Source: a virus
Strand: one strand, 5' to 3'
IMG/VR virus record: IMGVR_UViG_3300022841_000042
Coordinates: 1-32,242 of that record
DNA: 32,242 nt
Each line of letters opens with the position of its first letter. Positions within the stretch are counted from its first letter, which is position 1. This document shows positions 924-22,126 of the stretch, piece by piece. The translations under genes were made by a program, and so were the position numbers. The notes under the pieces are model-generated. The model was not told the DNA's origin. It made no database searches and saw only the letters and a list, made by a program, of their open reading frames with translations.

Positions 924-1661
924 ATGAAAGCAACTTATATTGCACATTATCTCACTGACAAAGATGTAGCCAACTTTGCTAGGCAATCTTTTGCCTCAGT
1001 AGCCGACCAATTTAGTGAAACTCAAAACAATAACCTCATTCGCTTTTTAGCTAGAGGCATGGCTTCAGGTGACTGGGAAAAGCTGCTATTGCAGTTTACT
1101 GACTGCCAATCTATAGAGAAAGCTAAAGAACTTGCTGTTTACTGCAGGTCTATTCCAGAGCATTGGGTTCCATTTGGTCATCCTCATATCTCTATTCGTA
1201 TGCAAGCGCCTGTGCCTATTGCACGACAAGCTTTTAAACATAAGATTGGTTTTGTAGAGTCAGAAGAATCTAGGAGATATATCTCAGGTCGCCCTGAGTT
1301 GTATATTCCACCTGCTTTCCGAGCAGTTGCTGCTTCTGTAAAGCAAGGCTCGTCTGGGCCTCACAAAGATACTGATTATTGGGTCACTGAGTACAGTGTT
1401 CAATGCACTTCAGCTATAACTCTCTACGAAAACATGGTTAATGATGGCATTTGTCCAGAACAAGCAAGGTTTGTTTTGCCTCAAGGATGCGAAGTTAACT
1501 GGGTATGGACAGGCTCACTCTATTCATTTGCTAACTTCTATAACTTACGCACAGACTCTCATGCTCAGTTAGAAATTCAAGATTTAGCTAATGATATTGG
1601 AAAAATAATTGCCCCCTTATACCCTATTTCTTGGTCGGCATTAACTAATGGTGCTTATTGA
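924..1661 (+). CDS. thyX: Flavin-dependent thymidylate synthase ThyX
   Basis: ThyX makes dTMP from dUMP using methylenetetrahydrofolate and FAD/NADPH, supplying thymidine for phage DNA synthesis. The 245-residue length fits the family. Residues 101-119 (RQAFKHKIGFVESEESRRY) are a phage-type version of the ThyX signature RHRxxSxNExSxRY: the flanking R, the S and the terminal SxRY are kept, while the N of NE is replaced (ESEES), as in other divergent phage forms. The sequence starts MKATYIAHYLTD at an ATG at 924 and is the first gene of the rightward block, about 80 bases from the divergent fibre gene. A hairpin/T-rich element follows it, so it may be transcribed separately from nrdBA. Together with nrdB/nrdA it forms a nucleotide-supply cassette, as seen in N4-like phages of aquatic bacteria. 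Confidence 0.9.
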   Translation: MKATYIAHYLTDKDVANFARQSFASVADQFSETQNNNLIRFLARGMASGDWEKLLLQFTDCQSIEKAKELAVYCRSIPEHWVPFGHPHISIRMQAPVPIARQAFKHKIGFVESEESRRYISGRPELYIPPAFRAVAASVKQGSSGPHKDTDYWVTEYSVQCTSAITLYENMVNDGICPEQARFVLPQGCEVNWVWTGSLYSFANFYNLRTDSHAQLEIQDLANDIGKIIAPLYPISWSALTNGAY

Positions 1662-1701
1662 ATGCCTGTAAACTAATCCTCCCATTAATTAATTAAGAGT
1701 T

Positions 1702-1723
1702 CAAGGGCTTTCCTTGCCCTTTT
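1702..1723 (+). terminator. Terminator-like hairpin after thyX
   Basis: AAGGGC (1703-1708) pairs with GCCCTT (1716-1721) around a 7-base loop and runs into TTTT. The stem is short and the T run is brief, so termination would be partial. It lies in the 134-base spacer between thyX and nrdB, which otherwise shows only AT-rich sequence and no confident promoter. Confidence 0.55.
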
Positions 1724-1795
1724 GCAAAATTAATCAATTTTCTAATCAATGCAGTACCAGTATTGATTCTTTGTTTATGAAACTAAAAGAAACAC

Positions 1796-2818
1796 ATGCA
1801 CACACCTAATTCATTAAGCCAAATTGAAACAACAACTGACTCTTATGTAGCTCGCTACCCTTGGGCAACTGAAATGGCTATTGAACAACAAGCCATCTTC
1901 TGGCCTGCTGAAGAGTTAGGCGTAGAAGAAGATGAACAGGATTTTCGTGTTGGTCTTAATGACGCTGAACGTCATGGCCTGCTTACAGCTCAATCAGTAT
2001 TAACTCAGTATGAATTAATGATTGGTGGCGAAGAGTTATGGGGCGGCAAAATTGGTCGCCTATTTCCACGCCCTGAGATTCAACGCATGGCAGCTTGCTT
2101 TGCCAATGTAGAGCTAGGCTCTCATGCTCCGTTCTATGACTTAGGTAACAAAGTCATGGGCAACTCAACTGACGAGTTCTACAGCCGTTGGAAATCTGAT
2201 CCTATCTTGGCTGAGCGCATTGCTTTTATCAACGCTTGCACAGCGTCGGAAGACGCCTTAGAAGTTACAGCTGCACTGGCTTTTCTTGAAGGTGCCGTGC
2301 TGTTTACTGCATTTGGCTTCTTCAAAGGATTCAATAGCCGTGGCTTTAACTTGATCCCTCACTTTGTGAGCGGCATTGATGGCTCAGCTAAAGACGAGAA
2401 CTACCACTCTATTGCTTCTGCACGTTTGTTCCGTGAATGCAAAGCAGAGCGCGTTAAAGCAGGCAACCATTCACCAGAACAAGACGCCGTCTTAAAGCAA
2501 AAGATTGTGGACATTGCTCAAAAAGTAGCTGACCACGAACGCCGCATCAACGATCTTTTGTTTGCCATTCCTGGCAACCGAGTCGTTACGCAAGAAGAAC
2601 TCAACCGCTTCCTTGAAGACCGTGTTGATGTTGTTCTAAATCGACTGGAGATGCCTCCAATGTTTGGCCAAACCAAAGGCGTGATTAGCAACTGGTTCTA
2701 CCAACAACTTTCTACCGTCAAAGTCCCTGATTTCTTTGCAGCTACCCAGCTGCAATACACCCGCAACTGGGCCAAGCACAAGCTGGCTTTTAACAAGGAA
2801 CTCGCTGATGTACTCTAA
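1796..2818 (+). CDS. nrdB: Class I ribonucleotide reductase small (radical) subunit NrdB
   Basis: This subunit generates the radical used by NrdA to reduce ribonucleoside diphosphates. Its 340 residues match the R2 ferritin-like fold. Visible candidates for the metal site and radical are E39/E40 (FWPAEEL), E106 and H110 (ELGSH), Y114 (HAPFY), E165 (FLEGAVLF), and E201/H204 (DENYH). The H110-to-Y114 spacing equals that of E. coli H118-Y122. E106 sits four residues before H110, whereas the E. coli motif is ExxH; this may be a subfamily trait. The gene starts at the ATG at 1796 with a weak purine-rich leader, and its end overlaps nrdA by 11 bases, consistent with translational coupling and equal subunit supply. 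Confidence 0.92.
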   Translation: MHTPNSLSQIETTTDSYVARYPWATEMAIEQQAIFWPAEELGVEEDEQDFRVGLNDAERHGLLTAQSVLTQYELMIGGEELWGGKIGRLFPRPEIQRMAACFANVELGSHAPFYDLGNKVMGNSTDEFYSRWKSDPILAERIAFINACTASEDALEVTAALAFLEGAVLFTAFGFFKGFNSRGFNLIPHFVSGIDGSAKDENYHSIASARLFRECKAERVKAGNHSPEQDAVLKQKIVDIAQKVADHERRINDLLFAIPGNRVVTQEELNRFLEDRVDVVLNRLEMPPMFGQTKGVISNWFYQQLSTVKVPDFFAATQLQYTRNWAKHKLAFNKELADVL

Positions 2819-4556
2819 TCCAATCGATACCGTTGAACAAACCTCTCCCACTGGAGGAGAGAACTTACAAAAGTATGAGCGTTTGAGCTTAGAGCGCAAA
2901 GATCTCCAAACCAAAGGTCATTTGCCCCAGTGGTACACAACCCCAGGCTGGCAGATGTTTAAAGAAAAATACGCTTATCCAGGTGAGGAAGCAGTTAAAG
3001 GCAGGCATCGCAAGATTGCTAAAACTTTAGCTCGTCACATGTTAGGTGCTGAAGCTGAGTGGGAAGACAAGTTCTTTCAAGAGCTATGGGACGGCATCTT
3101 GTCTCCAGCATCGCCTGCACTATCTAACACAGGAACAGATCGCGGGATGATGGTGTCTTGCTCTGGTCAGATGGTTGGTGACTCCGTGGAATCTTTCTAC
3201 GGTAACTTGCGTGAGACAGCTTTGCTGTCTAAGCAAGGCTTTGGCACCAGTGCTGACTTCAGCTCTATCCGGCCACGCGGCACACCTATCTCCAAAGGCG
3301 GTAAGGCCAGTGGTCCTGTAGAGGTTATCAATGACTTCTTTACGACTGCAGGCAAGATTAGCCAAGGTGGTAATCGTCGTGGCTCAGTAGGCGCTTATCT
3401 CAACATCGAACATGGTGACTGGGACGAAGCTTGTGACCAATTAGCAGCAGACCCCAATGGTAAAAACTACGGCTGGATCATTAAAGACTCTTTTGTAGCT
3501 CGCCTGCTTGAAGGTGACGAAGACGCATCACGTCGTTGGATTAAAGCGCTGTACACCAAGCTAACAACCGGCAAAGGGTACATCTTCTGTGTAGACAAAG
3601 CCAATCGTCATCGCCCACAGATGTACAAAGACCATGGCTTACACATCGTAGCTTCTAACTTGTGCAGTGAAATCATGCTGCACTCCAGCAACGACTACAC
3701 CTACTCTTGCATTTTGTCTTCATTGAACCTGGTTCATTGGGACCGGATCAAGACCAGTGACTCGGCATTCATTGCTACAGTCTTTTTAGACTGCTTGTGT
3801 TCTGAGTTTATTGAGGCCAGTGAATCTATTGCCGGTATGGAAAAAGTGCGAGCTTTCACCATTAAAGGCAGAGCCATTGGTTTAGGTGTGATGGGATTTC
3901 ACACTTATCTTCAAAGCAAAAACATTCCATACATCGGGTTGGAAGCACAGTTTTTGTCTGGCGAGATTGCTAAACATTTGCATGACGAGTCACTCAGAGC
4001 CAGCCAATGGTTGGCAGAACAGTACGGTGAACCTGGATGGTGTAAAGGCTACAAAGTGCGTAACACGCACCGTACAGCGTATGCACCTACAAAAACAACC
4101 GCACTTTTGATGGGTGGCGTTTCTGAGTCTTGGTTCCCAGACCCAGGCGCAGTCTTTGACGCAGGTACAGCAGTCGGTGAATTGCGCCGAATCACTCCAG
4201 TGATTTATGAGCTGATGAAAGAGAAGGGCGTTTACAACGACGCAACAATCCACAACATCATTGAAAACTTAGGCAGCGTGCAACACGTTGACTGGCTCAA
4301 TGTTGAAGAGAAGCTAGTCTTTCTCAATGCCTTTGAGATGGACCAACGCATCTTGCTTCGTCATGCAACTCAACGACAAAAGTACACCTGTCAGGGTCAG
4401 TCTTTGAACTTTTATGTTCCAGAAGACGGTTCTGAAAACCTAGTGGCGGATTTAATGACCGCCGTGCTTTTGCATCCTGATTGCTTGAGTCAGTACTACA
4501 TCTATAGCCGTAGCGGAGTAGTCATTAAGGACGAGTGCATTTCCTGCTCTGCATAA
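2808..4556 (+). CDS. nrdA: Class I ribonucleotide reductase large (catalytic) subunit NrdA, compact phage form
   Basis: This is the catalytic subunit that reduces ribonucleotides with NrdB. I choose the ATG at 2808 because it sits 8-12 bases after AAGGA inside the end of nrdB and gives MYSNPIDTVEQ; earlier in-frame codons only read nrdB out of frame. At 582 residues it is shorter than E. coli NrdA (761) and lacks room for the N-terminal ATP-cone, so dATP activity inhibition is probably absent. Active-site cysteines are visible: C118 (VSCSGQ), C286 within NLCSE with the paired Asn and Glu, C301 (YTYSCIL), a YY radical-transfer pair near the end, and the C-terminal shuttle pair C577xxC580. The enzyme therefore looks intact. 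A strong terminator follows directly. Confidence 0.93.
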   Translation: MYSNPIDTVEQTSPTGGENLQKYERLSLERKDLQTKGHLPQWYTTPGWQMFKEKYAYPGEEAVKGRHRKIAKTLARHMLGAEAEWEDKFFQELWDGILSPASPALSNTGTDRGMMVSCSGQMVGDSVESFYGNLRETALLSKQGFGTSADFSSIRPRGTPISKGGKASGPVEVINDFFTTAGKISQGGNRRGSVGAYLNIEHGDWDEACDQLAADPNGKNYGWIIKDSFVARLLEGDEDASRRWIKALYTKLTTGKGYIFCVDKANRHRPQMYKDHGLHIVASNLCSEIMLHSSNDYTYSCILSSLNLVHWDRIKTSDSAFIATVFLDCLCSEFIEASESIAGMEKVRAFTIKGRAIGLGVMGFHTYLQSKNIPYIGLEAQFLSGEIAKHLHDESLRASQWLAEQYGEPGWCKGYKVRNTHRTAYAPTKTTALLMGGVSESWFPDPGAVFDAGTAVGELRRITPVIYELMKEKGVYNDATIHNIIENLGSVQHVDWLNVEEKLVFLNAFEMDQRILLRHATQRQKYTCQGQSLNFYVPEDGSENLVADLMTAVLLHPDCLSQYYIYSRSGVVIKDECISCSA

Positions 4557-6038: not shown

Positions 6039-8180
6039 ATGAACTACGATCAAATGCCTTATCACTCCACCAGCGAAAAACTGGTGGACATTATGCGTAA
6101 CCGCACACAAGCAGAAGAGCCTTTGTTCTTTCGCGTCTTGGTAGGTTATTACTTTTCTCTAGCTGCATCCCAAATGCGCTGCTCTATCAGCAGCCCTGAT
6201 CGAGGCGAGATTCCAGTCAACATGTATGCCTGTAATCTAGCGCCATCAGGCTTTGGTAAAACTTTGTCTTGCAACTTGATGGAGGAAGAAGTTCTTCACT
6301 TGTTTCGCTCACGCTTTCTTGAGGAAACTTTTCCTTTGTTAGCTGATACAAACTTGCCTAAGCTAGCAGTCAAGAGAGCTAATCGCAAAGCTACTGATCC
6401 AGATGAAGAACTTCGCAGTCTGCAATCAGAGTTCAACAAAGGCGGCGCAATGGTGTTCTCGTTTGACTCTGGCACTTCGCCAGCAGTTAAGCAATTGCGC
6501 CACAAACTGCTGATGGCCAATGCTGGTTCTATGAACTTGATCATGGATGAGGTAGGTGCCAACATGACCGCTAACCGGGAAGTGTTTGACGCTTTTATTG
6601 AGCTCTTCGATAAGGGCTTGATTAAACAAAAGCTAATCAAAAATGGCCCAGACAATTTGCGCAATGAAGAAATCATTGGCAAGACCCCAACCAACCTTTT
6701 GATGTTTGGCGTACCAAACGCTTTGCTTGATGGTGCCAAAACTGAAGAAGAGTTTATGAAGCTCTTGGACATGGGCTATGCACGGCGCTGTTTCTTTGGC
6801 TATCTTCGCACGATCAGTCGTAAGAAAGGTCGCAATGCTGAGCAAATGTATGACGACCGCACAAACCACAGTAACAACCAGGCAATAGAAGAGCTAGCTC
6901 AGCGTTTTGAAAACTTGGCAGACATTATTAATGCCAACAAGCAACTGGTCATCAGTAAGGCAACGTGCATCAAGCTCAATGAATATCAAATCCATTGTGA
7001 GCAACGTGCTGAGCAACTAGGAGATCACCAAGAACTGCGCAAAAGTGAGCTGTCTAACCGCAACTTTAAAGTGCTCAAGCTGGCTGGTGCTTACGCTTTT
7101 ATTGATGACTCGCCAGAGATTACTGAAGCACACATCTTTAACGCCATTCGCTTGGCAGAAGACTCTGGTGAAGCATTCACTCGCTTGCTATCGCGGGATA
7201 AATCTTGGGTTAAGTTAGCTAAGTACATCGCAGCCGTAGGTCAAGATGTTACGCACGCTGACTTGTCAGAAGACTTGCCTTTCTACAAGGGAGGCTCCGG
7301 TAACAAGCAAGAGTTGTTGAGTAACGCCATTGGTTGGGGCTACAAAAACAACATCATCATCAAGAAATCTTTCGCAGATGGTATTGAGTTCTTGCGGGGT
7401 GAAACGCTCAAGCCAACTGACTTGAAAAAAATGGTCATCAGTTACTCCACTGACATGACCACTGACTACCGCAATGAACACGCTCCGTTTGACAAGCTTC
7501 ACAAGCTGACTCAAACAGCGGGTCTTCACTGGGTAGCTCACCACCTCAATGGCGGTTACCGCAATGAAGAGAACGCTATCGCTGGCTTTAACGTAGCAGT
7601 GATTGATGTTGATGGTGGCGTAAACATTAGTACTGCCAAGATGCTGCTCAAAAATTACAAGTTTTTGTTGTACACAACTAAGCGCCATACAGAAGAAGAG
7701 AACCGCTTTCGTATCTTGTTGCCTATCAACTATGAGTTGCGCCTGGATGCCAAGGACTACAAAGAGTTTATGGCCAACATTTACCAGTGGCTCCCTTTCG
7801 ATGTTGATCTTGCAACCAACCAGCGTGCTCGCAAATGGCTGTCTCATGACGGGCACTTTGAGTACAACGAAGGCGAAATGCTTGACGCCTTGCCCTTCAT
7901 TCCAAAGACCAGCAAGAACGAAGAGCGCAAGACTTTAGTGGACTCGCAGCAATCTATGGACAACTTGGAGCGTTGGGTCATCAACCACATTGGTGACGGT
8001 AATCGCAACAACATGCTGCTGCGCTACTCAATGATTCTGCTCGATGCAGGCTTTGACTTTGAGGGCATCCGCTCTCGTGTCATGGGCTTAAACGACAAGA
8101 TTGTAGACAAGTTAGAAGAGCAAGAAATTATGGGAACCGTAATGGTCACTGTAATGAAAGCATTGGCTAAGAAAGCGTAA
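6039..8180 (+). CDS. Replicative ATPase-primase fusion (P-loop ATPase, AEP primase, PriCT)
   Basis: This 713-residue protein likely primes phage DNA replication. The N-terminal half is a DUF3987-like P-loop ATPase: Walker A at 68-75 (APSGFGKT, K74) and Walker B at D170-E171 (LIMDEVG). The C-terminal half shows archaeo-eukaryotic primase motifs: D523-x-D525 (AVIDVDGG), H550 in YTTKRH followed by RFRILLP, and D588/D590 (FDVDLA). Residues about 649-690 (GDGNRNNMLLRYSMILLDAGF) resemble the PriCT helical domain that follows such primases. The ATPase-first order is the reverse of most PrimPol-helicase proteins. By position and size it corresponds to the primase (gp43 class) of N4-like phages. ATG 6039 has no clear ribosome-binding site. 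Domain names come from motif reading, not a profile search. Confidence 0.8.
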   Translation: MNYDQMPYHSTSEKLVDIMRNRTQAEEPLFFRVLVGYYFSLAASQMRCSISSPDRGEIPVNMYACNLAPSGFGKTLSCNLMEEEVLHLFRSRFLEETFPLLADTNLPKLAVKRANRKATDPDEELRSLQSEFNKGGAMVFSFDSGTSPAVKQLRHKLLMANAGSMNLIMDEVGANMTANREVFDAFIELFDKGLIKQKLIKNGPDNLRNEEIIGKTPTNLLMFGVPNALLDGAKTEEEFMKLLDMGYARRCFFGYLRTISRKKGRNAEQMYDDRTNHSNNQAIEELAQRFENLADIINANKQLVISKATCIKLNEYQIHCEQRAEQLGDHQELRKSELSNRNFKVLKLAGAYAFIDDSPEITEAHIFNAIRLAEDSGEAFTRLLSRDKSWVKLAKYIAAVGQDVTHADLSEDLPFYKGGSGNKQELLSNAIGWGYKNNIIIKKSFADGIEFLRGETLKPTDLKKMVISYSTDMTTDYRNEHAPFDKLHKLTQTAGLHWVAHHLNGGYRNEENAIAGFNVAVIDVDGGVNISTAKMLLKNYKFLLYTTKRHTEEENRFRILLPINYELRLDAKDYKEFMANIYQWLPFDVDLATNQRARKWLSHDGHFEYNEGEMLDALPFIPKTSKNEERKTLVDSQQSMDNLERWVINHIGDGNRNNMLLRYSMILLDAGFDFEGIRSRVMGLNDKIVDKLEEQEIMGTVMVTVMKALAKKA

Positions 8181-11435: not shown

Positions 11436-11558
11436 CCCCGGAAAGACGGGGACTATAAGAAATGAAGGCTGGCAACGGGTTAGCGCCGTTGCAGGACAAT
11501 TGAGAGCCTTCTAGTGTTGGTAATCCGCTGCTTCATGCGAGCAGCCTTCATTTCTTAT
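11436..11558. other. Structured convergent junction (element B): 16-bp inverted repeat with internal hairpins
   Basis: A perfect 16-base inverted repeat (11455-11470 and 11543-11558) encloses 72 bases. Inside lie a hairpin GCAACGG/CCGTTGC (11472-11478/11486-11492) and a hairpin GCTGCT/AGCAGC (11527-11532/11540-11545). A third hairpin, CCCCG/CGGGG (11436-11440/11447-11451), precedes it. GAAGGCT at 11464-11470 can pair with AGCCTTC at either 11505-11511 or 11543-11549, so two folds compete. The right arm contains the stop codon of the giant polymerase gene. No long T run is present on either strand. Likely a transcription barrier or structured RNA between converging units; not a tRNA. Confidence 0.65.
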
Positions 11559-14500
11559 GGTTTTATAAGCGACATTGTTGCATTGACTGTCGCCAAGTCA
11601 TCTAACACAGTGAAGTACTTAAAAGCTCCAGCCCCAAATGGGTTATTACCAAGGCGTCCCCATACAGAACCATCTAACACGGTGGAACCTAAGTCAATGT
11701 ACTGCTCCATAGCCAATACAGCTAGCACTCTACCTGGCTTTTCTCTCATCAGTGTTAGCAATACTTTTTGTATCCGCAAGAAGTACTTGGTAAACGGCAA
11801 AATGCCCATGTCATCCAGATACTGTAAGGCTTTGTGCATAGGAATGTCGTAGTTCACAAACGAATCACTAGCGTCTTGGATCGCTTTTTCCTTAGTCATA
11901 GGGTTGCGCTTAGTAGTGTTGTGTTGATACAAAGTGTATCGCGCTACAAAGTCAGACAACTGAGTAACACGGCTTAATCCTTGGTACATCTTGGTGTCTT
12001 TCGACATGTACAAGGTTTTAGCCAGACTCTTTACCTTTGGGTTTAGTTTGTCTGTGTATTTACTAACGCTTTGTGCAAACTGTGATGGATAAGAGTAGAG
12101 GTCTTCTTCTAAAGACACATCTTCCACAATAGTAGGCATCAATCCAGAATCAACCAGCTCTTTGATTGGGTTGCGGTCTATTGAATTTTCTAAACGAGCA
12201 ATTCTGCTTGCTATTTCTTTGTCGTTGCCTTGCGTGTAACCGCTGTTGCGTTGTAGCTTGAGTTGCCCCAACTCATCCATGTCACGTTGGTAAGCAGAAG
12301 CTGAACGCAGCGCTACCAAGTGATGGTAAAGAATTGAACGAAGTGGTACACCATTCATAGCCAATAGAGTCATGTTGGAATAAATGTTTCCTAGCATCAC
12401 AATGCCAGTCTTCACCACAATGATGTCTTTCGTTTCAGCTACCAACGCTTGCCAAACTTTTTCTCCTTTGTTTACTATGCTTGCTGCTCGCTTAGCGTAG
12501 TCTTCTGCTTCTTGTGCGCTCATGCCACGGATTCGGCCAGACTGTCGCAAAACAGTGTTCATTCCATAAACAAACATTTTTTCCAAAGATCTTTGCAGCT
12601 TTGGATCTTTTTCAAACATGTCGGCTAAAGACGCTTTGCGATAACCAAACATAATGTCCAGCGTATCGTTTCGTACCACCATGCCTTTGGAACCAAAAAT
12701 AGCTTCTGCGTCTTTTTTGGTTTTCTCTGGCAGCATGTTCCAGATTTCCTTCATGTCTTTATCAGTAGACTCTTGACCTACCAAAACGTAGGCTGTTGGG
12801 TTCTTAACCCAATCCAAATCAAACTGTTCTTTAATAGCTTTCATCGCTGTTTTGTTTTGCTCTTGTGACGTTTCTTTGTCAAAGACAGAACCAGCCATCA
12901 TGCCTAGTACACGCTCAAACCTATTGTCCCGGCTCAAGACACTGTCCTTAGTAGCTTCACTCATCAAGTAACGCCACTTCACTACGTTGCCTTGCTCGTT
13001 AAGCACAGGAGCCATGTGATTGGCTTTCACCTTAGACAAGTCACGCCTTGGTCCAGGCTTAAACATATCTGCAATCGCTTGTGTGCGTGACGCCATCATG
13101 TCTGCGTTAGCAGATGCGTTTTGCGCACCTATATACGTGTTGGTATCTAGGTAACCATTATGGTTTTCAGAGCCTTTGTTTGTCATGCCGGTGATGGACA
13201 CAATGCCTGACACCTTGGATTGCATACCACCACCTTTGCGGATGTAAAGATGTTTGACCTGGCGGTTAGGATCTCCTTTGTCTAAAGAGACACGAGCTCC
13301 TTTTGTATAACCGTGGTTGATTAAATTTTTACCATCAATTTCATTAGCTGATTTGATGTCTACGTTAGGGTCGTAGATCTCAGAGGTATAGCCGTGCATC
13401 ATCAGCTCTGGGCGACCTTTAAAAAGTCTAGCCAATGCTTCTTCTTCTAGATGCTTATGCAGCTTCAAAACAAACTCAACACCGTTTCCATCTGTACGCT
13501 GATTCTCTGTGGCCAGTAATTTAGCTGCTTCGTTGCGTTGAGCTACACCCATGTACTCAATGGAGTACAAGACTGTCAGTACCTCAATAATTTTTTGAGC
13601 TTCTTCCGTGCGTGCTTCTGTCAACTTGCCTTGGTAAGCCGTGCCGTACAGCTTGGCTATGTTGTGTGAGTTCATCATCGTAAACTCACCAGCTACTAGA
13701 CCTGTAGCCACCTGAATAGCCAATGCGTTGGCTTGTTCAATAAAGTAAAACTTAGCATTGTTAAAGCTGTTTAGTTTTGCTTCAAAGCTAGCAATTGATT
13801 TGCTCATCTCAGCTCGGTTGCTCAGCAACTGCTCAATCTCCGGCAGACTAAAGTCTTTCAGCAAAGCATGTGCTCCTGTGCGCATAAAGACCGCTGAGAC
13901 GCTTGATTTGGCCTCAGTAGACAAACGCTTGCCATTGTCTGCAAAAGCCCACAAAGCGCCTTTAGAGGCGTCTGAGATTAAGGTTTTACGCATCTTTTCA
14001 AGCGACTTAGTGCCACGCAACAAAGCTTGCAAGAAAGTAGCTGATCCTTTGAGCTCTCCTAATGCTGAGGCTACTACGCCCAGCTTGCCTTTGAAAGCCG
14101 AGTTGCGCATGGTGCGCAAGTTGTCAATAAAGAAATCAACGTTATCGTCAGCTACTGTTCTGACTAACGCACCAGCTGTGCGTACTCCCAGGTTTGAGTT
14201 CTCTCTGATAAAACTAGAGTTTGCCCAAGAAGAAACTTTATTTCGGGCAACATCAGATGCGGCTTTAACACCATCTTCAAAAGAGTCAGTAAACTTATTA
14301 CGCACTGGGCTGTTTAGCTTGTGCCGCTCTTTGGCTTCTATATCAATAAGTTGACCCACAAGCGCAGTTATTTTTGCATCAGCATTTTGGCCTTTGTAAG
14401 TGTTTGTTACCTTGCCATTAAAGAAAGCCAAGATGTTCTCAAACACAATCTGCAGCCTGTCTGCAAAGCTAACAGCAGAAGAGCGTTGACGGCCTGTCTC

Positions 14501-17500
14501 AGTAGCAGTCTTGAGCATCTGATTAAAGCCTTCATGAGCCAAGCCCATAGCAGCAAACCGAGACAAGTAGTCTGATCGAGAGCCGTTGCTTTGCTCTACC
14601 TTGAAGATAAAATCGTACAGATTTTGCGCATTCGCTTGCTCAGACGGTGTAGCTGTTGTCCAGTCACCTGTGTGAAAGTCTTCTACTTTGAGCTTTTTCT
14701 GGATCTCTGTGTACAGCGCATCTAACTCTTTGTAAGCCACTTTGCTGTGAGCTTCTTTGGCGTCCAGTGCAGCACGCACTGTAGCTTCAACTTGCTCAAT
14801 AACAAACGCACTTTGCTCTGTCATCTTAAAGCCTGAGCCCAAGATTGAAGAAGCAAAAGGAGCAACTCCTGTGTTTAGCGCTTTAAACCAAACATCCATA
14901 GGAGTCAGTGCTTGGTCTTTCATTAAGCTCTCTTTGAACGAGCCAAATGGACCATACAGCTTGCTGACCATGCTACCTAGCAAACCACGCAATTGAGCAT
15001 CAAATGCTGGCGAGATGGTTCCTGTGTCTAGCGCTTCATACAAGTCAATAGTGCTGTAGGTGTTCAATGTTGCTTGCGCAGCGGACACATTCATAGCCAA
15101 GTTTTTGGCACCTGTCTCTTGGCTGCTTTGCTCTTGCAGAGCAGCAGCCGTAGACAGGATGCCTGAAACGTTAGCGATCAAAACACCTAAGCCTTTAGCA
15201 GATGCCGTGTCTTTAAAGCCAAGCAAACCAGCCATGTTGCCAATGAAGGCTTGCAGCAGATCCGTTAGCTTACCCAGCGTGGTGGACTGCATTTGAGCTT
15301 TGGCCAGCACTTCTTGCTGAAACTCTTGATTGGTCATACCCCAAGAAACCAGCTCGTCTAAGTTGCTCAAAGCAGTAGCAAACTTGTCTGATAAGTTACT
15401 TGAATCAGCATATTTACGGGCAACAATCAAAAGCTCATTCAACTCTTTGATGTACGGTTGCAAAGCTTTTTCTTTGCTAGCTAACAAACGAGAAATAGCA
15501 GAGTGCAGCAATTCATGCACCAGCAGTTCAGGCGTTAAACCAGAGCTTTGAAACGCTGGGCTCATCACGTAAATTTCTGTTTTGCCTCCTGCAAATCCAG
15601 TCCAGCCACGAGCATTCTTTTGTACACCTGCAATGGGCAGTGTTGCTGCTGTGTCTGGGGTGATGTATTTCACCATCATCTCTGGATCAATAAACTTGAC
15701 CAGCGCCTTGAGCAGCTTGCTATTGAACCCTGCATTAGGCAAACCAGGCTCGTTCTTGTATTTGCGCAGCAAACCTTGAACCACTCGCTTGAAGTTCACC
15801 TCTTTATTCACTTCAAAGAAGTTAACCAAGTCCTGATCTGGGGCAACTTGAGGAGTGCCCAAAGGACCAAATGGTGTGTCACCTGTTAGCACTTTTGTTT
15901 TAACTGGCACCGGCTTGGTGTCTTGCATGATGTCTGCAGGCTCAGCTTGTGTTTCCGCTCCCAGCTCTTTTTGAAGCAAAGTAGTGATCTGCTGAACAGC
16001 TTTCAAAAGCGCAGGGTTTACCGCGTTATCCAGTTCACCCAACATCTTTGTAGCCATTGCACGGTCATCATCTGAGACAGGGTATTCACCCCCTTGCAAA
16101 GCGTACTGGTCAACAGCTCCCATGATGGCCAAGACCTGCAACTTAATGCTGTCAGCTTCAAAAGCCATAGCCTTCATGCCTTTCACCATGTCAGCCAGCA
16201 ATGTTTTTGGGTCCATTTTTTCTTTGACAGCCAGCGTGTTAATAGCTTTGGCAATGTTAGTAATGGCTGCGGGAGAAACTTCTCCTTTGTCCATCAAAGC
16301 TGCCAGACCCATCACAGTGCGAGACAACGCTGCCAACATTTCATTGGCTGGCGAGAAGTTCAACATCACGTTGAACAGTGATTTGTTCAGGCTCTGAGCT
16401 GCTTCTGTGAAGCCAGCCAAACCTACACCTGTAGCATCAAAGATGTTCAGTGTTTCGCGTTTACCTAAAGACAGCATCATGGCGGCGCTGTCAGCAGAGT
16501 GAATTGAAGACACCAGCATGGCTACACCAGGGTTTTCTTCTACTGTTTCAAAGCCATTGACTTCCATCGTAGTGCCATCTGCAAATTTGATGTCGCTTTT
16601 ATGCGTGTACTTTGTACTGAGCTTCTTGCCTGACTTAGAGATGCGCAAACCAGCATTCAACTGACCTGTTGGCTTGGACATGGGCGTGTGCAACAAAGGC
16701 GTCATTGCTCCCATACGTTTTGCCAGAACAGCTTCTTGTTCAGGGTTCAGGTCATGTACAGCTTTAGGTGCGCCTTTTTCTGTCATGGCAATCTTGCCAT
16801 CACGCGCCAATTCTTCTACATACTCTGTACGCAATGCTTCGTAAGTTGCGTTGTACAGCTCAAAGGCTAAACGTGCTGCTGTGTTGAACTGTGCACGCTT
16901 CTGAATAAAGTTCTCAAAGTCTGTTTCCATCGTGTTCTTAACAGCAAACCCCAGTGTGTTGGAGAAGGCCCGCTTTACAGCTTTTATTTGATCAACGTCA
17001 AACTCAAGCTCCATGAGCTCTTTAACAGTCAGGTTGTGATCAATCCACTCTGCTTTGCCTTGGCTCAAAAGCAAGTTGATATTCCCAATCAGATCCACAC
17101 GGTCTTGTTTAGTAGGGTTCTTCTTAGTTGCCAAGTCTTCAATGCCTGCATAGATAGAATCAACAAAGTTGTTGGCCATGCTTTCTACAGCAGCAAAAAC
17201 AGATGAGCCAAACACCATAGCTGTCAAAGGTGTCTTGATAATGTCTCGCCCAGCCTTCTCAACTTCACCTGTTTCTTTGTTCACCAGCTCGCCTGTGAAC
17301 GCATACACCGCTTGCATCACAACGCTTACTTGACCTGGAGTCATTGAGTAGTTCTTTGCCACAATGCCGCTGACCATCAAGTTTTGAATCTCAGTGTTCA
17401 TGTGCTGAGTTGTGGTTTCATACAAGTCAAAATTACCAACATCTCCACGCCACTGGTTGTAGTTGGTGTGCTTGTTGCCTATCTCAAAAAAGCCACCTCG

Positions 17501-20500
17501 GTTCAACAAGGCATACAAGCCTTCTACTGTGTTGGCTGCACCCAGGAACACGTGGCTCAGCATAGGTCCGTTAGTTACACCGTCTACTTCGCCCATGATT
17601 TTCACAGTGAAGTTTGTCTCGTTTGCTTGGCTGGCGTTTTCCATTTGAGCCAATGCCATTAGCGCCGCCAAAGAAGCTGTATTTTTACCGCCTGCTTTTA
17701 CGCCTGCCAGCAACACTGTTTGCTCTTCTGCACTTAAAACTTCTTCTGAATTTTTAAGGTGCTCTTGCAAGATAGCCACTGCTGCTTGAATAGTAGGGTC
17801 AGCAATCTTTTTCTTGAATATTTCAATGTTGACAACGTTGTCTTTTTTGTCTGTTTTGATGCCCAAGTTCTCAGCAACTCGCAAGTTAAAGTTTTCCATC
17901 TCTGCTGAGTTAGCAAAGTTGACTATGGTTTCCCATGACTTTTGAAACAGCATCTCTCTATGAAATTTGCTTGATTGTGGGTTGATAACGTTGCCATCAA
18001 TTGCCACTCGCTGCTGCTTGTAAGACACGTGCCTAAAAAACATAGGTGCTTTGCCGTCTTTCATTACACCAACAAAATCCATAAACCTAGAGATCTCTCT
18101 GCGCAGGCCATCGTTCTTAGATTGCAGTGGCAGCCGTGTAGAGACATGCGCTGTAGAAGCGTCTACTGACTCAGCACCTGCAATTTGCAGCTGAATGTCC
18201 TCGTCTAACCCACTAAACAAACCTAACATCTCTTGGTTAACGTAGTTGCCCACAGAGTCTTCGTGAGCAATGGCTTTCACAAGCGCTTCAGGCAAACCTT
18301 GCTTTGTATTTTTAGTTGTCTTTTGGTTAGACACAACTGGCGTCATGCTTGGCTCTCGCAAGCTAGACTCCACTGAAAACAGCTTGTTCAGCAAGCCTTG
18401 TGTTTTGCGTGACCCTTCAAATATTTCGGTTGCGTCTTTTGACAACTTAAAGTTTTCGTCTCGTGCAAGACTCAAGAAGTTAAATTTTGCATTTGTTTCT
18501 GTCAAAGAATTGCCCGTTAAAGCAGCCATTTCTTGACCAGAAATAATATTTCGTTTTAGTAAACCAGTGTCTACCATCATCTTCATAATGTGCGCACCAA
18601 GACCGCTTTCTAAGCGAGCCATCTCATTGCTGCCAGCCAATTGATTAACACTCAAGCCAAGAGCTTGAACAGCTCTTTGACCAAGCTGATTGATCACCGT
18701 GTTTTGGCGATTGCCTACAAGCCCCAGTGCTTTTTGTTCTTGAGGCGAGACTGGGTGTGATTCATCCCGATCCAGAAGGCGGTTGATGTCTTCTTTGCTG
18801 TTGACTGCTGATTGGCCAGCGTTCTCTGCAATCCAGCTGAATGCTGCATAGCTCATCGCCGTCTTCAGGTTGGAATCAAGAGTCTCTTTGCCATCAAGAT
18901 CGGTCTGGATTAAAAACTGAAACATGTCACGAAAGAAAAAATCTGACGTTTCAGCAAGGCGCTTGAACTTGTTAGCTTCAAAGACTTTGCTCCAAGTCTT
19001 GTCAGCTTTGCTGAACAAACTTACAACATCTTTTTGCTCTTTGCTCAGCTCAGTCAAATTAACGTAAGTCAACAAAAGACCTGCATCCTTGCGCAACGCA
19101 TCAATAAAGTCTTTGACCATGACCAGTGGTCGCAGTGTGGCGTCACCCTCTCGACCAGGCGATTGCTTGAAGAGATCAGCAATCAAGTTCAGTCTTTTCT
19201 TGTAAGGAGTCCCCTCCGGGGAAGTCTGTTGAAATGCTGATAAAACTCCAGACAACTCAGGAATTTCCTGTTTATCTGTGCTATTCTCCGCATTAGACTC
19301 TTTATTAACTGTAATCCCTTCAGTTGTTTCAGTCTTCTTAGTCTCTACAGTGTTCACAGAAGAGGCGGATGCCTCCTCATTAACTGTAGTTGTCTCAGTT
19401 AAAGTTTCTTTCAGTAGCGCGGCGGCTTTGGCGGCTTTTTGCCCGTTTTCATTTGATTCATTTGCGTCTCCTATTTGAGTGTTAATGGGTGTTGCTCTTG
19501 TGACTCTGGCTGCTCCATCGGCTGTTCCTGCTGGTGTCTCTCTTGCCACTCCAGCTGCTTGAGCATCTTTTGTTTCAACGGCTGCGAGCTGAACTTCTTT
19601 TCCAGCTCCTTGTTTTGGCGACTCTTGGACATTACTCACTCCAGTTGATTTGGTTGAGGTAGCTGTAAATTTGAGGTTGTAAGCGGCTTCCAGCTCACCC
19701 AAAGACTTGCTTAAAGCGTCTGCTTCTTGACGAATGTCGTTAACCAAATCTCTTGAGACAATCGCCAAGCCACCGTTGGTGCGCAATTGCGCTGTTGTCA
19801 TCTTGCCGTCACCGATCTGCCAACTACCGTTCTTATTGATGATCTGTGTGCCTAAGCCGTTTTCCAACGCAGCTTCAGCAACTTCAGCTTTGCTTGTGTG
19901 ATCTGCTTCAAACTTAGCCAGCCCCGTCAACTGCTTCTGCGCTTGACCTGCATTGCTGTCAGCAATAGCCCTGCTCATGCGAGATTTGTATTCTTTGATT
20001 CCTACGCTGCCTTCACTGCCCAGGTAGATTTGGCGAGATACCTCTCCCGCGTCTAGCAACAAGTTCTGAGCCACACGTGCTTCTGAGAACTTGCGCAGGT
20101 AATCTCGCTGGCTTTCTGACAAACCATTGCTTTTGTTTGCCACTAGCTCTCTGATCTTGGCTTGGTCCAACAGCTCAGGTGAAGCCATGGCCAGGTTAAA
20201 GATCTGATTGGCTGCGTCTTTAGACGCTGTAACAGCCACTGAATCAGCAGCATCTACAGTTTGATTGGCAGTAGCCAGCTTCTCAGCAATGTCGCTAGAC
20301 GAGCTAACCGCAGCACTCAGCTGGCTTTTAGCTACATTGGCTTGGTCGATCTGCGCACTCAAATCAGCAAGCTCTTTCTCGATCTTCCTGGTTTGCTTTG
20401 CGTCTTGCGTATTTTGTTTTAGCTCTACAAGCTGAGTCTTTAAATTGCTCAGGTAACTTTTTGTTTTCTCAATCCGCGAAGTGTTAGCAGGGTCTATCTT

Positions 20501-22126
20501 GTCCAAATCAGCTTGCGTCTTGGCAATGGTTTCTTTAACACCTTTAGCCGTGTCTGCTGCAAAGTCCGCCATCAGTGCTTCGCGCTTGGTTTCCAAGACA
20601 GCCACAATTTCATCTGCTTTGGCAATGTTTGCTTGCTTGCTCTCAGGCGTTGCAGTGTCTATTTTGGCGTTGCCTGCCAAAGCAGCAATAGCTTCAGTTG
20701 GGTTGTAACTAGGTGAAGTTGGGTCAGACAACTTAGACACATCGCCAGATGCAATAGCATCTGCTTTAATTTTGTTAGCGTCTTGATATATCTGCGCTTT
20801 TTGTTTAACGCCTTGAGCCAGGCCCATAGGAGCGCCCATAGCCGCACCTGTAACTGCGCCGATAGCAGCGGCATTACCTACGCCTTTATCCCACTGTTGA
20901 TCCAAAGCTACGTTACTAGCAATAGTTTCGCCTGTAGATTGCAGCGCTTCTTCTCCGCCTTCAAAAACAGCCGATCCACCTGTGCGTGTAATAACACCTC
21001 GGTTAGATATACCCAATGTACCTTTGGTAATAGCTTCATCAATGTCACCTAAACCAAGACGAGCAGCTGCTCCACCACTGAGTCTTGCTACGCCTGCACC
21101 CATCACACCTGTGCTAGCTGCCAGCAAAGATTGTTTTAGTGTTAACCGATTGTCTGCTGTTTGATTACGAATGTTTTCAGCACCAGAGCCAGCCATGACC
21201 AAGCCTTCTCCTGCCGCTGTAGCCATTCGGACACCAGCACCTAAAGCTACGATGCCACGGGCTGCTACGCCGCCTGCCAGCATAGGAAACAAAGACTCCA
21301 GCAACATGTGCGGCACAGTGCTTGGGTTGTTAGCAATTTCACTTAGCGTGTTCCAAAAACCTTCTGCACCGTTGACGCTCTGACTAGCAGCCTGCATTTC
21401 AGCCGACTTCAGCGAGTTGATAAACTCTTTGGCCTCTGCTGGTTTGAATCCAGCATCGGCCAAGTACTTGCCTGCTGCACCACCAGACACAAGACTCGCA
21501 ATACCTACAACTGCTTCAGGCACTGCAATAGCAGAGTTAACCAAGCTAAGTCCTGCATCCACACCCATTTGTGCCAAGCCAGTTGGTTTAATACCGTTTT
21601 CATCAGGCGCAACTGTTTTGGCAAGCTTTTCTCTGCGTTGTTCAATTGTTTGAGAAAATGCTGAAGCTCTGTCTGCTTCATTTAAGTAACTGGCGTTGGT
21701 CTTGTTTTGGATACCCAACATCCCTGGTGCTACTTGATTGAGTAAAGCTGTGTCTTCTTCATTAGCTCTACCGGCAATTACTCGCTGATGTGCATTCCTA
21801 GCTTCCAGGCTAATATTGTTTTTAAGAAATTTTGCGTATTGTTCAGTTACACCTGAGCCAACAGCGCCAATACCATCTGTAAGATCATTAACTGTGGCAA
21901 CACCACGATTAATAATCGCACCGCCAGTATCGTTGGGGTTTAATCCAATTCTTCCGACAATAGACTCAGCAACCGCTTTATCACGGGCTTGCTGAAATAG
22001 TCTGCGCTGCTCAAGCTCAGCGATTTTATCTGTACTAGCTTGCTGCAAGTCAGCAAACTTATCTTGAGCTGCAAGAGTATGTGCAGCTGGACCTGTAGTT
22101 ATGAAATCGTCATAATTTGTTGACAT
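11555..22126 (-). CDS. Giant virion RNA polymerase (N4 gp50-like vRNAP), 3,523 residues
   Basis: This is the packaged, injected single-subunit RNA polymerase expected to transcribe early genes from hairpin promoters. Length equals the N4 protein (about 3,500). Residues 1-~850 are Ala/Gly-rich with hydrophobic stretches. A Thr/Glu/Ser-rich linker (~870-955) leads into the polymerase domain (~957-2000). T7-family motifs: R1373 in YKQQRVAIDGNVINPQ (TxxGR-type), D1515 in motif A (GEVDGVTNGPM), R1627/K1631/F1639 in motif B (RDIIKTPLTAMVFG), D1879 in motif C (SIHSADS). Spacing between motifs follows N4 mini-vRNAP. Motif B has Phe instead of Tyr at the nucleotide-discrimination position. A zinc-peptidase motif H2204-E-L-L-H2208 with E2258 (DELVSWG) follows. 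The remainder is long and helical. ATG 22126 follows AAGGTG. The last gene of the late operon. Confidence 0.9.
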   Translation of the reverse strand: MSTNYDDFITTGPAAHTLAAQDKFADLQQASTDKIAELEQRRLFQQARDKAVAESIVGRIGLNPNDTGGAIINRGVATVNDLTDGIGAVGSGVTEQYAKFLKNNISLEARNAHQRVIAGRANEEDTALLNQVAPGMLGIQNKTNASYLNEADRASAFSQTIEQRREKLAKTVAPDENGIKPTGLAQMGVDAGLSLVNSAIAVPEAVVGIASLVSGGAAGKYLADAGFKPAEAKEFINSLKSAEMQAASQSVNGAEGFWNTLSEIANNPSTVPHMLLESLFPMLAGGVAARGIVALGAGVRMATAAGEGLVMAGSGAENIRNQTADNRLTLKQSLLAASTGVMGAGVARLSGGAAARLGLGDIDEAITKGTLGISNRGVITRTGGSAVFEGGEEALQSTGETIASNVALDQQWDKGVGNAAAIGAVTGAAMGAPMGLAQGVKQKAQIYQDANKIKADAIASGDVSKLSDPTSPSYNPTEAIAALAGNAKIDTATPESKQANIAKADEIVAVLETKREALMADFAADTAKGVKETIAKTQADLDKIDPANTSRIEKTKSYLSNLKTQLVELKQNTQDAKQTRKIEKELADLSAQIDQANVAKSQLSAAVSSSSDIAEKLATANQTVDAADSVAVTASKDAANQIFNLAMASPELLDQAKIRELVANKSNGLSESQRDYLRKFSEARVAQNLLLDAGEVSRQIYLGSEGSVGIKEYKSRMSRAIADSNAGQAQKQLTGLAKFEADHTSKAEVAEAALENGLGTQIINKNGSWQIGDGKMTTAQLRTNGGLAIVSRDLVNDIRQEADALSKSLGELEAAYNLKFTATSTKSTGVSNVQESPKQGAGKEVQLAAVETKDAQAAGVARETPAGTADGAARVTRATPINTQIGDANESNENGQKAAKAAALLKETLTETTTVNEEASASSVNTVETKKTETTEGITVNKESNAENSTDKQEIPELSGVLSAFQQTSPEGTPYKKRLNLIADLFKQSPGREGDATLRPLVMVKDFIDALRKDAGLLLTYVNLTELSKEQKDVVSLFSKADKTWSKVFEANKFKRLAETSDFFFRDMFQFLIQTDLDGKETLDSNLKTAMSYAAFSWIAENAGQSAVNSKEDINRLLDRDESHPVSPQEQKALGLVGNRQNTVINQLGQRAVQALGLSVNQLAGSNEMARLESGLGAHIMKMMVDTGLLKRNIISGQEMAALTGNSLTETNAKFNFLSLARDENFKLSKDATEIFEGSRKTQGLLNKLFSVESSLREPSMTPVVSNQKTTKNTKQGLPEALVKAIAHEDSVGNYVNQEMLGLFSGLDEDIQLQIAGAESVDASTAHVSTRLPLQSKNDGLRREISRFMDFVGVMKDGKAPMFFRHVSYKQQRVAIDGNVINPQSSKFHREMLFQKSWETIVNFANSAEMENFNLRVAENLGIKTDKKDNVVNIEIFKKKIADPTIQAAVAILQEHLKNSEEVLSAEEQTVLLAGVKAGGKNTASLAALMALAQMENASQANETNFTVKIMGEVDGVTNGPMLSHVFLGAANTVEGLYALLNRGGFFEIGNKHTNYNQWRGDVGNFDLYETTTQHMNTEIQNLMVSGIVAKNYSMTPGQVSVVMQAVYAFTGELVNKETGEVEKAGRDIIKTPLTAMVFGSSVFAAVESMANNFVDSIYAGIEDLATKKNPTKQDRVDLIGNINLLLSQGKAEWIDHNLTVKELMELEFDVDQIKAVKRAFSNTLGFAVKNTMETDFENFIQKRAQFNTAARLAFELYNATYEALRTEYVEELARDGKIAMTEKGAPKAVHDLNPEQEAVLAKRMGAMTPLLHTPMSKPTGQLNAGLRISKSGKKLSTKYTHKSDIKFADGTTMEVNGFETVEENPGVAMLVSSIHSADSAAMMLSLGKRETLNIFDATGVGLAGFTEAAQSLNKSLFNVMLNFSPANEMLAALSRTVMGLAALMDKGEVSPAAITNIAKAINTLAVKEKMDPKTLLADMVKGMKAMAFEADSIKLQVLAIMGAVDQYALQGGEYPVSDDDRAMATKMLGELDNAVNPALLKAVQQITTLLQKELGAETQAEPADIMQDTKPVPVKTKVLTGDTPFGPLGTPQVAPDQDLVNFFEVNKEVNFKRVVQGLLRKYKNEPGLPNAGFNSKLLKALVKFIDPEMMVKYITPDTAATLPIAGVQKNARGWTGFAGGKTEIYVMSPAFQSSGLTPELLVHELLHSAISRLLASKEKALQPYIKELNELLIVARKYADSSNLSDKFATALSNLDELVSWGMTNQEFQQEVLAKAQMQSTTLGKLTDLLQAFIGNMAGLLGFKDTASAKGLGVLIANVSGILSTAAALQEQSSQETGAKNLAMNVSAAQATLNTYSTIDLYEALDTGTISPAFDAQLRGLLGSMVSKLYGPFGSFKESLMKDQALTPMDVWFKALNTGVAPFASSILGSGFKMTEQSAFVIEQVEATVRAALDAKEAHSKVAYKELDALYTEIQKKLKVEDFHTGDWTTATPSEQANAQNLYDFIFKVEQSNGSRSDYLSRFAAMGLAHEGFNQMLKTATETGRQRSSAVSFADRLQIVFENILAFFNGKVTNTYKGQNADAKITALVGQLIDIEAKERHKLNSPVRNKFTDSFEDGVKAASDVARNKVSSWANSSFIRENSNLGVRTAGALVRTVADDNVDFFIDNLRTMRNSAFKGKLGVVASALGELKGSATFLQALLRGTKSLEKMRKTLISDASKGALWAFADNGKRLSTEAKSSVSAVFMRTGAHALLKDFSLPEIEQLLSNRAEMSKSIASFEAKLNSFNNAKFYFIEQANALAIQVATGLVAGEFTMMNSHNIAKLYGTAYQGKLTEARTEEAQKIIEVLTVLYSIEYMGVAQRNEAAKLLATENQRTDGNGVEFVLKLHKHLEEEALARLFKGRPELMMHGYTSEIYDPNVDIKSANEIDGKNLINHGYTKGARVSLDKGDPNRQVKHLYIRKGGGMQSKVSGIVSITGMTNKGSENHNGYLDTNTYIGAQNASANADMMASRTQAIADMFKPGPRRDLSKVKANHMAPVLNEQGNVVKWRYLMSEATKDSVLSRDNRFERVLGMMAGSVFDKETSQEQNKTAMKAIKEQFDLDWVKNPTAYVLVGQESTDKDMKEIWNMLPEKTKKDAEAIFGSKGMVVRNDTLDIMFGYRKASLADMFEKDPKLQRSLEKMFVYGMNTVLRQSGRIRGMSAQEAEDYAKRAASIVNKGEKVWQALVAETKDIIVVKTGIVMLGNIYSNMTLLAMNGVPLRSILYHHLVALRSASAYQRDMDELGQLKLQRNSGYTQGNDKEIASRIARLENSIDRNPIKELVDSGLMPTIVEDVSLEEDLYSYPSQFAQSVSKYTDKLNPKVKSLAKTLYMSKDTKMYQGLSRVTQLSDFVARYTLYQHNTTKRNPMTKEKAIQDASDSFVNYDIPMHKALQYLDDMGILPFTKYFLRIQKVLLTLMREKPGRVLAVLAMEQYIDLGSTVLDGSVWGRLGNNPFGAGAFKYFTVLDDLATVNATMSLIKP

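Follow-up and report, generated by a model that had tools for sequence, protein, structure and literature searches.

Phenylalanine at the sugar-discrimination position of a Schitoviridae virion RNA polymerase and its histidine partner

The virion RNA polymerase gene and its catalytic domain

The window, i.e. the whole stretch of 32,242 nucleotides analysed (IMG/VR virus record IMGVR_UViG_3300022841_000042), carries on its minus strand the gene of a large polymerase with the following features.

11555..22126, minus strand: virion RNA polymerase (vRNAP), 3523 aa, without cysteine (phrog_2206 'virion RNA polymerase', E=0 over residues 180-3511; phmmer 1.9e-53 to N4 vRNAP chains)
15947..19189, minus strand: catalytic domain, residues 980-2060, equivalent of the N4 mini-vRNAP (AlphaFold2 pLDDT 90.8, pTM 0.88)
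18008..18010, minus strand: R1373, invariant Arg, codon CGA, in the T/DxxGR region (putative N4 R424 / T7 R425 position, placed by the phmmer alignment to N4)
17582..17584, minus strand: D1515, catalytic Asp of motif A (T7 D537)
16439..16441, minus strand: F1896, T7 H811 position, directly N-terminal to the catalytic Asp (column compared across lineages)
16436..16438, minus strand: D1897, catalytic Asp of motif C (T7 D812), in a strand-turn-strand of the AlphaFold2 model

Judged by sequence and structural model, the product of ORF 11555-22126(-) is a Schitoviridae (N4-like) vRNAP. Its 3523 residues match the size of the vRNAP family (~3,400-3,500 aa) and phrog_2206 spans nearly the full length. 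The best VIA-align match of the AlphaFold2 model of residues 980-2060 was the N4 mini-vRNAP 2po4 (Z 28.5, rmsd 4.2, 949 residues aligned); below the N4 entries ranked the RNAPs of T7 and of mitochondria (Z 13-19). The protein shares with coliphage N4 vRNAP (gp50) and its mini-vRNAP the fold, motifs A, B and C, the size and the gene position beside ejection proteins. R1373 is invariant in a 38-row alignment, and the catalytic Asp residues of motifs A and C (D1515, D1897) and the Arg and Lys of motif B (R1627, K1631) are all present. Members of the family close motif B with an aromatic residue, Tyr or Phe, which in ORF 11555-22126 is Phe. Since Phe is found in classified members, Schitoviridae vRNAPs are not defined by Tyr. 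Cysteine-free vRNAPs have been reported for phages LUZ7 and LIT1 and explained by passage via tail and periplasm (PMC3715699). A DNA-level search of phage genomes returned no near relative.

Phe1639 in motif B

Two further features define the site under study.

17207..17248, minus strand: motif B, R1627-G1640 (RDIIKTPLTAMVFG), located by phmmer to N4 vRNAP and hhalign to T7
17210..17212, minus strand: F1639 (TTT), sugar-discrimination position (T7 Y639, N4 Y678), located by phmmer, hhalign and codon reading

Residues 1627-1642 read RDIIKTPLTAMVFGSS, with motif B as R1627-DII-K1631-TPLTAMV-F1639-G and the codons CGA for R1627 (17246-17248) and AAG for K1631 (17234-17236). The 14-residue motif stops at 17207, 2 bases past the start coordinate that an earlier note on this DNA had given for it. 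The same note had placed a natural Phe at the position of T7 Y639 and N4 Y678, and codon reading confirms the Phe, phmmer and hhalign the homology. In the gap-free phmmer alignment RDIIKTPLTAMVFGSS lies over RGIAKNPLTITIYGSG of N4 vRNAP (PDB 11gp, 9pnr), and hhalign of the vRNAP family against T7 (local mode) pairs F1639 with T7 Y639. Both alignments thus set Phe at the site, and no replacement Tyr occurs at 1637-1644 among the common residues of the lineages. In the AlphaFold2 model residue 1639 caps a helix, matching the expectation for Y639 at the tip of the O-helix.

A sequencing error is an unlikely source of F1639, because a 99% identical contig from a different metagenome (L002) also reads TTT and not TAT at 1639 despite differing in nearby residues (FGSSVFAAV vs FGSPVFSAV). 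Weak secondary motif-like matches in L035 and L044 fell beyond the domain, in a different downstream part of that protein, and were discarded.

Distribution of Phe in the family

Catalytic-domain sequences were collected from 20 phage isolates and through five IMG/VR family scans, aligned to a profile and reduced to one sequence per 90%-identity cluster, which gave 185 lineages. Site 1639 is Tyr in 131 of these and Phe in 54, with nothing else, and the two residues are never mixed within any cluster of >90% identity. The scans were partly seeded from Phe lineages, so that 54/185 is not a natural frequency. The Phe carriers include the Pseudomonas phages LIT1, LUZ7, phCDa and Littlefix. On a maximum-likelihood tree calculated without site 1639, Tyr and Phe interchange 11 times, with at least five changes forced by well-supported branches; a second tree (mixture model; columns of motif B, the His-loop and motif C removed) has 10 changes. 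N4's half of the tree consists of 75 lineages, all with Tyr. The vRNAP of the window falls in a clade of 56 lineages, 46 of them with Phe, together with the four Pseudomonas phages named. Phe lineages outside this clade are L144/L163, L152/L181, L149/L172/L182 and L192.

Phe is hence not unique to the phage of this record and instead is the trait of a large clade. Its natural occurrence in Schitoviridae vRNAPs has been known since 2010, when motif B (Rx3Kx7YG) of LUZ7, LIT1 and PEV2 was described in a supplementary legend as conserved except for Y678F (Ceyssens et al. 2010, PMC3715699). Legend S2 of that work credits Y678F with aiding discrimination against dNTPs, a comment that runs opposite to the measurements on T7 Y639F (PMC9836923). 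The vRNAPs of these three phages (Migulavirinae, PMC3715699) belong to the same family as that of the window, are likewise cysteine-free and have Phe at the N4 Y678 position and His at the T7 H784 position, but the two are only ~34% identical over the catalytic domain. New here are the spread of Phe and its His partner, for which no prior description was found in the accessible literature.

The catalytic residues D1515 and D1897 are conserved in all 54 Phe and all 128 Tyr lineages. Motif C reads FDA in the vRNAP of the window, HDA in LUZ7, LIT1 and PEV2 and FDG in N4. F1896 is unusual, since 52 of the 54 Phe lineages carry His there; among these 54, Phe1639 and Phe1896 are combined only in the vRNAP of the window and in L192.

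A histidine partner of Phe1639

A scan for columns covarying with Phe covered all 360 columns with no preselected candidates. Its top column corresponds to the following residue.

16499..16501, minus strand: H1876 (CAC), aligned with T7 H784, partner of F1639 (hhalign to T7; correlated change)

H1876 lies within IHSADS, which hhalign sets on T7 V-H784-S-Q-D. The alignment is anchored by the Asp three residues past H1876, present in 54/54 Phe and 126/128 Tyr lineages. His occupies column 1876 in all 54 Phe lineages vs 20 of the 128 Tyr lineages, the latter otherwise having Gly (65), Gln (30), Ser (7) and a few others. Eight lineages found later included two with Phe, both with His, so that Phe without His at the T7 H784 position was found in none of 56 Phe lineages. 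The compensating residues that the earlier note had offered as an alternative thus have a counterpart in this His, which accompanies Phe in 56 of 56 lineages.

In the correlated-evolution test the H1876 column reached an LRT of 36.6 vs 27.0 for the next column (a fit from a single start gave 28.2, several starts 36.6). Within the mixed half of the tree the values were 28.3 vs 19.8, and on the second tree 29.4, with column 1765 close at 26.1. Since many columns score high in this test (median 8.5), rank and simulation outweigh the nominal p. When Phe and His were simulated independently, only 1 of 2074 data sets showed zero cases of Phe without His; for the mixed half the figure was 3 of 3310. 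An independent-pairs sign test yielded five pairs, 2.9 of them the same way and none opposite, which are too few for significance; the truly independent Tyr/Phe switches are few.

Phe outside the main clade always occurs with His, both in the lineages listed above and in L480. Tyr lineages nested among Phe relatives have Gln (L107, L084, L096, L110, L111, L108, L008) or His (L081, L083, L085). Some 30 Tyr lineages (e.g. L084, L096, L107, L110, L006, L016) carry Gln at the T7 H784 position, none of them with Phe1639. A Gln (Q849 in Pol I) also stands in the corresponding region of family A DNA polymerases.

The sugar pocket compared with that of T7 RNA polymerase

17567..17569, minus strand: G1520, equivalent of T7 G542, the glycine that permits a 2'-OH (Glu in DNA polymerases), placed by its motif A position (D537 +5)

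The G1520 column is invariant for Gly in the 182 lineages in which it is filled (54/54 Phe and 128/128 Tyr); the bulky Glu that marks DNA polymerases at this position is absent from all of them. The vRNAP is therefore not drifting toward a DNA polymerase. In T7 RNA polymerase, Y639 senses the 2'-OH through a metal (PMC9836923, PMC11617373), H784 hydrogen-bonds the 2'-OH and G542 gives room for it, with Glu in its place in DNA polymerases (PMC11617373). H784 has instead been described as reaching into the minor groove of the hybrid (PMC4551944). The Y639F mutation lowers the rATP/dATP discrimination of the T7 enzyme from ~120-140-fold to ~5-7-fold (PMC9836923). As this mutant retains H784 and yet loses ~20-fold discrimination, His alone is insufficient for full selectivity.

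With Phe at 639, His at 784 (hhalign) and Gly at 542 (motif A position), the pocket of the vRNAP equals that of T7 Y639F, although the vRNAP is natural, ancient and of a different family. N4 shows the reverse combination, Tyr678 with Gly at the T7 H784 position. A natural counterpart of the T7 Y639F/H784A double-type pocket, i.e. Phe without His, was not found among the 56 Phe lineages. Among T7-like RNAPs, Tyr and His are both retained in 74/74 frames readable at both sites; four of the 78 frames had no full reading.

Nucleotide genes and primase of the phage

Four genes on the opposite strand bear on the supply of dNTPs and primers.

924..1661, plus strand: ThyX (PF02511, 9.9e-36)
1796..2818, plus strand: ribonucleotide reductase (RNR) small subunit (PF00268, 2.7e-28)
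2736..4556, plus strand: RNR large subunit (PF02867, 3.6e-64)
6039..8180, plus strand: phage DNA primase (phrog_2135, E=0)

The RNR and ThyX genes mentioned in the earlier note are present, with ThyX and both RNR subunits at 924-4556. The tie it suggested between Phe and dNTP synthesis by the phage finds no support across 50 genomes, in which RNR scored over the cut-off in 8/19 Phe vs 8/31 Tyr genomes (p=0.35) and ThyX in 8/19 vs 17/31 (p=0.56). Both genes are missing from six Pseudomonas Phe phages; LUZ7, LIT1 and PEV2 are without RNR and ThyX, whereas the phage of the record has both. Given the lack of association and these six phages, the link is unsupported, and F1639 is no oddity connected with the phage's nucleotide genes. 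As listed, the two RNR open reading frames overlap, the large one running from a TTG start, and a single profile of 977 positions, phrog_30939, covers both subunits.

Proposed role of Phe1639 and alternative explanations

F1639 is probably a long-fixed, clade-wide natural counterpart of T7 Y639F in what is still an RNA polymerase, with weaker ribose selectivity, a floor set by the His and ordinary early mRNA as product. The 2'-OH of the substrate would have lost its contact to the Tyr hydroxyl and would retain that to H1876, next to the permissive G1520. On this view Schitoviridae vRNAPs retain at least one member of the sugar-contacting pair. The N4 type retains Tyr and has lost His (Gly in its place), the Phe type retains His and lacks the Tyr hydroxyl, and some retain both; a vRNAP with neither was not found among the lineages. 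A switch from Tyr to Phe would be possible only with His present. Since the vRNAP of the window has a pocket equal to that of T7 Y639F, a selectivity weaker than that of wild-type T7 is expected, probably above the floor given by His1876. The Phe-type vRNAP most likely produces ordinary early mRNA, and its weaker selectivity may be tolerated because cellular rNTPs exceed dNTPs.

Phe and His might instead be a historical marker, the inheritance of one old clade and nearly neutral in early transcription that tolerates either residue. Most Phe lineages (46) do lie within a single clade, Phe and Tyr are one base apart and independent contrasts are few, but we regard this reading as unlikely, given that Phe arising elsewhere (L144/L163, L152/L181, L149/L172/L182, L192, L480) always comes with His and that Tyr lineages inside the Phe clade often have Gln rather than His. 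Moreover, the strongest coupling among 360 columns falls on the known functional partner, and site 1639 is only ever Phe or Tyr. It seems most doubtful that other residues of the Phe clade (e.g. T1632, M1637, S1880, loop 1872-1880) fully restore selectivity and leave Phe without effect on the substrate. Other columns near the pocket do covary with Phe (LRT 23.7 for S1880, 22.9 for Ile at 1872 and, in the mixed half of the tree, 18.8 for Ala at 1636), and residue 1632 is mostly Thr or Lys in Phe lineages vs Asn in Tyr lineages; yet S1880 occurs in 49/54 Phe lineages, 1632 and 1637 vary among them, and only the His is found in 54/54.

The earlier note had also proposed that relaxed selectivity is exploited for mixed RNA/DNA transcripts or primers, aided by the RNR and ThyX of the phage. 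A pocket like that of T7 Y639F (Phe with His784), with only ~5-7-fold discrimination (PMC9836923), and the presence of both activities in the window speak for it. We nevertheless consider it very unlikely: Phe is not associated with RNR or ThyX, both being missing from the six Pseudomonas Phe phages, and the G542 position is invariantly Gly, unlike in DNA polymerases. The primer idea is weakened by the phage's own primase (6039-8180), and the vRNAP, to judge from N4 biology, would act on entry, ahead of possible RNR synthesis by the phage. Rather improbable, too, is a variant in which Phe-type vRNAPs are weakly ribose-selective in the cell and scatter deoxynucleotides through the early transcripts of a large group of phages, for instance making them resistant to RNase or altering the early-to-middle switch, with His1876 setting the tolerated amount. 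In the accessible literature we found neither biochemistry of a Phe-type vRNAP nor work joining vRNAP with T7 H784; a transcriptome of a Phe-type N4-like phage was likewise not found in the accessible literature.

Y639 and H784 are the two T7 side chains that engineers alter for the acceptance of sugar-modified nucleotides. One phage family here offers a natural experiment in which the Tyr hydroxyl was lost in some lineages and the His in others, with none found lacking both; a pairing known from the laboratory thereby becomes an evolutionary rule that can be tested. Natural Y639F-type polymerases (LIT1, LUZ7 and others) are available for direct measurement of selectivity, and Phe-type vRNAPs could serve as starting enzymes for the production of modified RNA. 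vRNAP genes also occur on two bacterial assembly contigs, L486 (Vreelandella venusta NZ_BJUL01000016.1, 75.9 kb) and L485 (Marinobacterium litorale NZ_AUAZ01000052.1), which are possibly phage genomes carried along in these assemblies; one of the two is N4-like in genome size and has Phe and His.
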